This document shows positions 10,172-64,000 of a stretch of DNA of 64,000 bases, piece after piece. The notes under the pieces were generated by a model. The model had not been told where the DNA came from. It did not search any database and worked only from the letters and a program-made list of their open reading frames with translations. This DNA is from Gammaproteobacteria bacterium (GTDB lineage: Bacteria; Pseudomonadota; Gammaproteobacteria; Xanthomonadales; SZUA-36), in the NCBI GenBank assembly GCA_021772915.1, contig JAJFLB010000014.1, forward strand, positions 1 to 64,000. Direction: 5' to 3'. Both the position numbers and the translations under genes were made by a program. Each line of letters starts with the position of its first letter. Positions within the stretch are counted from its first letter, which is position 1.

Positions 10172-10249
10172 CAGGGCGTGACAGCAAGCGCGCGCAAAAT
10201 GGGTGCCAGCGGAGCTCCAGCAATATCACCTTGAAGGAGTACTAGGACA

Positions 10250-10834
10250 GTGACAGCAAAAAGAAGCGGCAAGAAGAGCAAGCCTGACAGCGTTGAGGAA
10301 AATGTATTACCACAAGCTGAAGAACCCACCGAGGAAGCGGAAGATGAGGCCGTTGGTGATGATCCGGTAGCCGCACTCGAGGTCGAACTGGACACTGCAC
10401 AGGCCGAGGCTGCTGAAAGCAAGGAAGCCATGTTGCGAATGCACGCTGACATGGAGAACTTGCGCAAAAGATTGCTGCGCGAACATGAAAAATCCCGTCG
10501 GCTGACCTTGGAAAGGTTCATGGGTGACCTGTTACCGGTGCGAGACAGCCTCGAACGGGGACTGGAGGCTGCTGATCAGACAACGACGGTTGAAGCACTC
10601 AGGGAAGGCAAGCAACTGATTATGAAAATGCTGGCCAAAGTCATGGGTGATCATGGCCTGCAGACAATCGACCCGGTGGGTGAACGCTTTGATCCGCAGT
10701 TTCATGAGGCCATGACCATGTTGGCCTCGGAAGAACACGATGAGAACACCGTCATTGAGGTGCTGGAAAAAGGCTACCGCTTGAACGATCGCCTGATAAG
10801 GCCAGCCAAGGTTGTGGTTTCTCGTAAACCCTGA
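10250..10834 (+). CDS. grpE: Nucleotide exchange factor GrpE
   Basis: A 194-residue cochaperone that releases ADP from DnaK. It has an acidic low-complexity N-terminus, a long helix (LRMHADMENLRKRLLREHEK) for dimerisation, and the C-terminal beta domain (FDPQFHEAMT, YRLNDRLIRPAKVVVS). The start is GTG, with a GGAGT-like ribosome site 8-12 nt before it; no ATG fits. It is preceded by a sigma-32 promoter and followed at its stop codon by a second one serving dnaK. Confidence 0.97.
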   Translation: MTAKRSGKKSKPDSVEENVLPQAEEPTEEAEDEAVGDDPVAALEVELDTAQAEAAESKEAMLRMHADMENLRKRLLREHEKSRRLTLERFMGDLLPVRDSLERGLEAADQTTTVEALREGKQLIMKMLAKVMGDHGLQTIDPVGERFDPQFHEAMTMLASEEHDENTVIEVLEKGYRLNDRLIRPAKVVVSRKP

Positions 10835-56175: not shown

Positions 56176-56274
56176 GCAAAAAGCATATCACATCCGGGAC
56201 TGATTGCTTTCTGGGCGTGGCAGCCCAATATTACATGGTTCATAATGCCGCCCTTCATTCACGAGGGTCCAGCG

Positions 56275-56370
56275 CTCCTTCAATGCTATAACTACGGATT
56301 CAGAGGTCGCCAGATGTACCAGGACAAGACGCAGCTCGCAGGAAATCACTGGTCCTTTTCGAGGGAGCAC
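56275..56370. repeat. Diverged copy of the right-end MITE-like element
   Basis: 56288-56334 matches 63724-63770 at 43 of 47 positions. Weaker similarity extends left into the terminal repeat (CTCCTTCAATG versus CTCCGTCCATG) and right to GAGGGAGCAC, ending immediately before the TauE start. The element may thus provide that gene's ribosome site (GAGGGAG). Confidence 0.7.
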
Positions 56371-56374
56371 TGAT

Positions 56375-57151
56375 ATGCCGCTGTTGCTTATCGCCGGTCT
56401 GTTCTTTCTGACTGCGGTTGCATACTCATCTGTTGGTTTTGGGGGTGGGTCCACCTACAACGCACTGCTGGTTCTGTCAGGTATGGACTACCGGTTGGTA
56501 CCGGCCATTGCACTGAGCTGCAATATTCTGGTTGTAGGTGGTGGTGTCTACCACTACATGCGCGCCGGGTACTTGTCGCTGTCAGGCTTGTTGCCTTACA
56601 TTGTGCTGTCGATTCCACTGGCCTGGCTGGGTGGACGTCTACAGGTTTCAGAGCAGCTATTTGTTGGTTTGCTGGGTTTCAGTCTGCTGCTGGTGACGGC
56701 GCAAATGTTGCGGAAACCGAGTGCGGGATTTAGCCCGGAAAGACACAGCAAGTCGGGATTGTGGTTAAGAGCCGCACCCGTCGGTGGGTTGATCGGCTTT
56801 CTGGCCGGGGTTACCGGTATTGGCGGGGGGATATTCCTGGCTCCGGTCATCTACCTGTTCCGCATGGCGCCGCCACGGGAGGTTGCGGGTATCACCAGTG
56901 GCTTTATCCTGGTTAACTCCCTGGCCGGTCTTGGTGGTCAGGTGTTCAAAGCCGGCGACTACTCTCCGCTGCAAGACACACTGGGGGCCTGGCCGTTATT
57001 CATTGCTGTCATTATCGGTGGCCAGCTCGGCAGCCGGCTGGGGGCTTATAAGCTGCCGGAAAAATGGGTCAGACAGCTTACCGGCTTGCTAATTCTCTAT
57101 GTGGCAGTCAGGTTATTATGGCGTTGGGTCGATATGGTATTGCCGGGATGA
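56375..57151 (+). CDS. TauE/SafE family (sulfite exporter-like) membrane protein
   Basis: A 258-residue permease with about eight hydrophobic segments. The N-terminal motif VAYSSVGFGGGSTYNALLV and the mid-protein repeat GFLAGVTGIGGGIFLAPVIYL are the paired TauE/SafE signatures. Substrates of the family are sulfite, sulfoacetate or similar organosulfur anions; none can be assigned here. It lies 4 bp before moaA on the same strand, so it may be cotranscribed with molybdenum cofactor genes. It may help handle sulfite or oxyanions, by inference. Confidence 0.9.
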   Translation: MPLLLIAGLFFLTAVAYSSVGFGGGSTYNALLVLSGMDYRLVPAIALSCNILVVGGGVYHYMRAGYLSLSGLLPYIVLSIPLAWLGGRLQVSEQLFVGLLGFSLLLVTAQMLRKPSAGFSPERHSKSGLWLRAAPVGGLIGFLAGVTGIGGGIFLAPVIYLFRMAPPREVAGITSGFILVNSLAGLGGQVFKAGDYSPLQDTLGAWPLFIAVIIGGQLGSRLGAYKLPEKWVRQLTGLLILYVAVRLLWRWVDMVLPG

Positions 57152-63665: not shown

Positions 63666-63707
63666 TTTCCAACCCCGCAAGGATTATCGATATTTGAGAA
63701 GCTTCTG

Positions 63708-63890
63708 GTACTCCGTCCATGTGATAACTACGGATTCAGAGGTACCCAGATGTTTCAGGACAAGACGCAGACAGCAGAGAATGGCCCGGTCCTTCTCAAG
63801 GGCTGCACCAAGAGTAGGCGCCCTCAAGCGACCCCACGGTCAACCACTTCCCAACTCGCTGAACTCGCAGTTATCACATGGACGGAGTAC
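63708..63890. mobile_element. 183-bp MITE-like element
   Basis: Terminal inverted repeats of 25 bp (63708-63732 and 63866-63890) match at 24 positions, starting GTACTCCGTCCATGTG. The interior has no coding potential. A diverged relative lies at 56275-56370, so the sequence is repeated. I see no clear target-site duplication. No transposase is in the window. The last 110 bp (63891-64000) show nothing I can support. Confidence 0.75.
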
Positions 63891-64000
63891 TAGTTTAAAG
63901 TCCCTGTCATAATACCTCGTGTTACCAATATGACCATGAAACCAGGACGGCCTCATCAGTAACAACAATTCCATAGCCCGGAAGCATACCCTCATTACGT

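Follow-up and report, generated by a model that had tools for sequence, protein, structure and literature searches.

The window, the whole 64,000-nucleotide stretch of DNA that was analysed, carries a small repeat element close to its right end, a decayed relative of it directly upstream of tauE and a solo element end upstream of grpE. The features considered here are:

63708..63890, no strand: 183-bp miniature inverted-repeat element (MITE), an internal-deletion derivative of a 289-bp form
63708..63739, plus strand: left terminal inverted repeat (TIR), 29 of 32 positions complementary to the right arm, folding as the outer stem
63859..63890, minus strand: right TIR and outer stem
63739..63835, plus strand: remnant of the first hairpin unit, matching covariance model R1 (38.5 bits, E 6e-8)
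63802..63807, plus strand: GCTGCA, the direct repeat where the 289-bp form lost 106 nt
63806..63830, plus strand: optional 23-nt module ACCAAGAGTAGGCGCCYTCARGCG, seen in the length classes 264, 287 and 310
63891..63892, plus strand: TA, right copy of the target dinucleotide
56272..56370, plus strand: 99-bp decayed short form immediately before tauE, absent in the congeners G004 and G005
56363..56367, plus strand: GGGAG of its right TIR, the probable tauE Shine-Dalgarno sequence, 7 nt before the ATG at 56375
56375..57151, plus strand: tauE (PF01925), downstream of the short copy
~10221..10242, plus strand: solo right element end, 7 nt upstream of the grpE GTG
10236-10239: GGAG of the solo end, 10 nt before the grpE GTG
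10250..10834, plus strand: grpE (PF01025), translated from the GTG adjoining the solo end

The earlier note had described the 183-bp unit as MITE-like, with 25-bp terminal repeats agreeing at 24 positions around a non-coding core. Examination of the arms (63708-63732 against 63866-63890) gives the same count, and the agreement extends to 29 of 32 positions. Two occurrences of the 22-nt arm in the window stand against none in 100 shuffles, and the arm is thus not a chance expectation. The core is indeed non-coding, with neither coding content nor a transposase gene across the elements of 183-310 bp. In the window copy only the right TA is intact, the left one having decayed to TG at 63706-63707. 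Positions 1-100 and 95-183 of the unit align to positions 1-100 and 201-289 of a 289-bp copy (L013), so that the short form is this longer one minus 106 nt between the GCTGCA repeats. It is found at three different loci, the other two copies being 96-98% identical to that of the window; hence the deletion form has itself moved.

A search of the own genome (G000; 4.68 Mb in 71 contigs) with the 183-bp unit recovered dozens of places, including 56275-56365 at tauE. Several contigs (C10, C43, C44, C48, C51 and C70) start or stop within an element, as is expected of long repeated hairpins that break assembly. The terminal repeat of the window subfamily begins GTRCTCC, with ends CTAGTRCTCCNTNCA, and the TIR-paired copies fall into fixed lengths of 183, 264-266, 287-289 and 310. 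The full elements of about 264, 287 and 310 nt contain 0, 1 and 2 copies of a 23-nt module, the steps being mostly copies of ACCAAGAGTAGGCGCCYTCAGGCG, and the location of the module varies between the two hairpins and between the two sides of the apex. The predicted fold of a full element consists of an outer stem of about 31 bp enclosing a first hairpin, a small central CCC..GGG hairpin and a second hairpin. The two large hairpins are about 97 nt each, very stable in predicted folds, and form an inverted pair, the second being a relative of the first read on the other strand. Six very divergent copies (L036, L038, L040, L044, L082 and L148) share this plan with other stem sequences. At the opposite extreme, a remnant of about 35 nt (G000:C41:42430-42468) retains the nearly fused ends of the window subfamily, CTAGTGCTCTGTCC..GGACAGAGCACTAG.

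The decayed relative noted earlier in front of tauE is real: its borders lie at 56272-56370 (99 bp), it is 79% identical where aligned to the 183-bp unit, and its TIRs read GCGCTCC..GGGAGCAC. The corresponding site is empty in the congeners, with G005 aligning across without 101 bp and G004 likewise lacking the element. As the copy is decayed and the congener spacers vary, a TA duplication is not readable from this alignment. The G004 tauE gene is preceded, a few bases away, by an AAGGA of its own; the G000 insertion falls between the position homologous to this AAGGA and the ATG. The idea that the short copy carries the tauE ribosome site fits these sequences well, and the pattern recurs at a dozen other genes.

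The ends of the window subfamily read outward as GGAGYAC|TA, a sequence that could act as a Shine-Dalgarno element for a gene starting just outside. An open reading frame starts within 9 nt at 23 of 99 G000 ends, against 9-19 (mean 13.6) in neighbouring 9-nt windows, a modest excess. Fourteen gene starts in G000 with domain-confirmed products lie no more than 9 nt from an element end, with GGAG at Shine-Dalgarno distance: tauE, grpE, an aminotransferase (probably hisC), T2SSF, ferredoxin, prepilin peptidase, a response regulator, a XerC-like recombinase, ParA, NUDIX, FdsD, a MaoC-type hydratase, the complex I 30-kDa subunit (nuoC-like) and ZapA. In some cases the start codon reaches into the junction or adjoins it, as in CTA|GTG at L018 and L034. 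The simplest reading of these junctions is that the element would supply the Shine-Dalgarno sequence, for example at tauE and grpE. The terminal GGAG recurs where grpE, nuoC-like, hisC-like, parA, xerC-like, zapA and tauE genes begin, which suggests how insertions beside start codons could, by a simple route, be tolerated at first and later be incorporated into gene expression. Before the grpE GTG (10221-10250) the solo-end GGAG is apparently the sole Shine-Dalgarno sequence. At two other G000 loci (L005 and L035) the upstream genes, which by eye look Mrp/ApbC-like and PspC-like, apparently use the TAG of the CTAG junction as their stop codon.

Among the 61 genomes of the relatives search, 14 contain the DNA unit, the own genome counted, and all but one of these belong to the same family. 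A search with one divergent copy (L048) reached genomes of other families, in which the plan is identical. Furthermore, R1, a covariance model of the hairpin unit, had matches at E <= 1e-4 in 112 of the 369 Gammaproteobacteria genomes, representing 87 of 272 genera. Most of the R1 loci checked are bounded by TIRs that match at 23-28 of 28 positions and are spaced 261-268 or 286-293 nt apart, and the TIRs of the checked loci are unrelated to one another (GTACTCC, GTGTCCTG, GTGGGCC, CTAAGACAAACG and GGGAACCG). Plasmids supplied the named hosts Azotobacter chroococcum, Halomonas sp. PA16-9 and Pseudomonas aeruginosa PA83; searches of plasmids, phages and viral contigs with the G000 subfamilies yielded no element and one chance TIR match. 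The repeat in the window belongs, as a shortened form, to a widespread superfamily of double-hairpin elements of about 264 bases, and is itself a small non-autonomous transposon. A literature search, with ISfinder outside its scope, found no description of this family, and we provisionally regard these elements as a superfamily of MITEs that is new, broadly distributed and unusual in its structure.

For the hairpins, 27 module-free units were aligned, the 5' hairpin as read and the 3' hairpin reverse-complemented, giving 33 pairs. Compensatory, double-sided changes occur in 30 of these, 93.5% of the alignment cells pair, and the covariation score of 0.787 compares with 0.249 for shuffled and <=0.17 for slid alignments. 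Sequence conservation is found mainly near the apex (CAAGGCG, AATGGCC..GTCCTT and GCAACGC). Mismatch-type pairs in unit orientation comprise 94 G-U against 11 A-C, with G-U favoured in 26 of 27 rows; constraint therefore seems to act on the 5' hairpin of whichever strand is read, and the wobble bias points to folded single strands, be they RNA or DNA. Part of this signal may stem from shared ancestry, arm homogenisation or mutation bias. Columns 18 and 85 of the alignment (A1) form a U-G wobble in 17 of 27 hairpin units and C-A in none, a possible recognition feature.

These properties raise the alternative that selection maintains the core as a functional RNA or as a structure bound by protein, and that mobility does no more than spread it. 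The strong covariation, the conserved apical AATGGCC..GTCCTT, the fixed lengths and the strand-biased wobble pairs all agree with such a function. However, active, nested and freely deleted copies act as mobile elements, arm homogenisation or inheritance could also preserve the pairing, and Rfam gave no match at gathering score, its only hits being weak miRNA-hairpin matches far below their gathering scores. A known RNA family is excluded as the identity of the core on the latter basis, and we consider selection for a function of the core a rather unlikely account.

The flanks of the elements point to a preferred target. TA is present on both sides of 77 of 126 paired copies; of the remaining self-complementary dinucleotides, AT is found in 11, CG in 11 and GC in 27. 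Decisive examples come from the complete genome G183, where three nested insertions place two subfamilies inside each other's terminal repeats, and sister copies display the unoccupied sequence. With the inserted element in brackets, these are: 1) GATACTA[GGGCCTGTTAAC..GTTAACAGGCCC]TAAGACAAACG, short form CTA[GGGCC..GGCCC]TAAGACAAACG; 2) GTTTGTCTTA[GGGCC..GGCCC]TAG, short form GTCTTA[GGGCC..GGCCC]TAG; 3) GGGCCTGTTA[CTAAG..CTTAG]TAACACT, short form GTTA[CTAAG..CTTAG]TAAC. The TA is duplicated in each; the target duplications that the earlier note had suggested looking for are thus proven in sister subfamilies of that in the window. The superfamily accordingly shows TIRs, lengths below about 600 bp without a transposase gene, many dispersed copies, TA duplication (from the G183 sister subfamily and the flank counts) and an empty site (from the tauE copy). 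The proposal of a non-autonomous transposon family likewise stands, on the dozens of G000 copies, the copies in 14 of 61 genomes, the TA that flanks most copies on both sides and the tauE insertion absent in congeners. G183 also contains TA-flanked 18-bp palindromes, GGGCCTGTTAACAGGCCC or close variants (L256, L259 and L260), which are scars of elements reduced to their fused ends, probably via deletion at the palindrome.

An IS with nearly the same terminal repeats, as the earlier note had envisaged, was recovered for sister subfamilies. In G183 an 812-bp IS occurs twice; its ends read TAGGGCGTGTTAACACTA and those of the G183 elements TAGGGCCTGTTAACACTA, 15 of the first 16 TIR bases being identical. 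The IS has two overlapping ORFs, which match the two halves of NF033580 with scores a little under the whole-protein cut-off, and which also match PF13340 and PF01609. On Azotobacter plasmid pAcX50d an annotated IS5 transposase, which apparently adjoins an inserted IS4 element, lies between ends CTAGGGGCTGTTGACGTTTC and CTAGGGTCTGTTGACGTTTTG, and the Azotobacter elements on pAcX50f start with CTAGGGTCTGTTGACGTTTTG. ISPa67, an annotated IS5-like IS, has ends CTAGGGTCTGTTGCCRTTT. The interiors of the IS searched with R1 gave no match, so that the core is no shortened IS. The expectation failed for the window's own GTRCTCC repeats: no IS with such ends was found among the matches listed for G000, in plasmids or in the eight relatives that were scanned for this TIR, nor were TIR pairs 0.7-3 kb apart seen among the listed G000 and relative matches. 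The IS5 assignment of the window subfamily is therefore carried over from its sister subfamilies, by comparison with which it was probably moved by an IS5-type transposase. The one IS5-type relic in G000 (G000:C28:26338-26568) has an end, GAGCCTGTTAACACTG, unlike the TIR of the window; this end is close to that of the G183 IS.

The TA duplication and the CTAG preference would also suit a transposase of the IS630/Tc1 type, enzymes that duplicate TA and favour CTAG and one of which, IS630-Spn1, is the proposed mobiliser of RUP in Streptococcus pneumoniae (PMC2229807). The matching domain, PF13358, is present in 4 of 39 genomes of the family, but it is missing from G000, the IS630 loci of the relatives lack GTRCTCC ends, and the sister subfamilies pair with IS5. 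IS630 was rejected as the partner on the first two of these points, and mobilisation of the window subfamily by such an enzyme is in our view unlikely.

Still less probable, to the point of being a marginal option, is that the hairpins are substrates of Y1/RAYT transposases, as in REP/BIME systems, with the terminal repeats being incidental. The inverted pair of hairpins resembles a BIME, the G-U over A-C bias (94 vs 11) implies folded single strands, and PF01797 is more frequent in element-positive genomes (93 of 112) than in element-negative ones (148 of 257), in counts uncorrected for genome size. Against this, Y1 enzymes are not known to generate 2-bp TA target duplications, whereas the duplication here is exact. 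Moreover, 7 of 55 multi-copy genomes, including the complete G422, lack PF01797, and the ten best PF01797 loci have no R1 match nearby. The Y1 enzymes are thus associated with the elements and not required, and were set aside as the partner. A linked PF01797 gene, as a REP/BIME system would have, was seen in one case: in G372 (L241, contig C159) about 600 bp separate a 321-aa Y1_Tnp gene from a full element bearing an extra hairpin insert. That these are ordinary palindromic repeats or terminators alike by chance, as their very stable hairpins might suggest, can be dismissed with near certainty, being refuted by the G183 nested insertions and contrary to full-length conserved copies at unrelated loci with constant length, TIRs and TA duplication.

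We propose, with a probability of roughly 0.72 for the reading as a whole, that a TIR-bound transposase, TA insertion, an IS5-type partner, a conserved core and GGAG supply together account for the family. A transposase encoded elsewhere would bind the terminal repeats of about 27 bp and then cut, and the element would be inserted at TA, preferably within CTAG, with duplication of the TA. Where found, in two subfamilies, the partner appears to be an IS5-family transposase of the IS427 type (NF033580); we infer that the corresponding enzyme of the window subfamily has been lost from, or is unassembled in, G000. The core is no shrunken IS but a conserved two-hairpin structure with two-fold symmetry, common to subfamilies with unrelated terminal repeats throughout the Gammaproteobacteria. 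A single core with unrelated terminal repeats implies that cores have changed their repeats, and hence their transposase partners, over time. As the window subfamily has an outward GGAG..YACTA at each end, an insertion beside a start codon could supply a Shine-Dalgarno sequence. More tentatively, and with the balance tilting somewhat against it, one core of two inversely symmetrical hairpins, under selection for folding as a single strand, might have spread through much of the Gammaproteobacteria by repeatedly taking local IS5-type ends, some copies being domesticated as translation starts of core genes; if so, it would be a modular parasite of transposons.

MITEs are commonly viewed as genus-specific deletion remnants of a single IS. 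Here, unrelated ends notwithstanding, elements in about 30% of the sampled Gammaproteobacteria are joined by one covarying architecture, so that one can directly test why bacterial MITEs have conserved folds. With the covariance model, annotators would be able to find many unlabelled copies, and it helps to explain contig breaks.

Among comparable known systems, IS of the IS5 family IS427 group (ISPa67 and the 812-bp IS of G183) have TIRs that start TAGGGYSTGTT.. with TA flanks and would provide the mobilising enzyme; unlike our elements, they are autonomous, code for a transposase and have interiors without a hairpin-model match. RUP, like our elements, is a short non-coding TIR element with a TA target, matches the TIRs of a resident IS and enters other mobile elements. 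It differs in pairing with IS630, where the pairing found here is with IS5, and in that the present core is a conserved two-hairpin structure in at least 87 genera with exchangeable TIRs. The Correia/NEMIS elements of Neisseria have size classes arising from internal deletion. They resemble our elements in TIRs, intergenic placement near gene starts and very stable RNA folds (PMC10969869). However, their sequence and architecture are different, and their published effects concern promoters, IHF sites and RNase III cleavage, with no supplied Shine-Dalgarno sequence. ERIC of Enterobacteriaceae is an imperfect, intergenic palindrome for which we know of no partner IS. It is 127 bp long (RU-1 in PMC2759123), has reported effects on transcript stability (PMC2229807, PMC10969869), and lacks both the inverted-pair two-hairpin architecture and the 23-nt module. 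The QMITE1/2 of Coxiella burnetii are also gammaproteobacterial MITEs with very stable folds (PMC5896051); going by their descriptions only, they are set apart by a length of about 400 bp with an IHF site (QMITE1) and by direct repeats of 7-9 bp (QMITE2). REP/BIME repeats share the inverted pairs of hairpins between genes, but REPs measure 20-40 bp (PMC3733652), in contrast to the present hairpins of about 97 nt, which lie within long TIRs and are accompanied by TA duplication.
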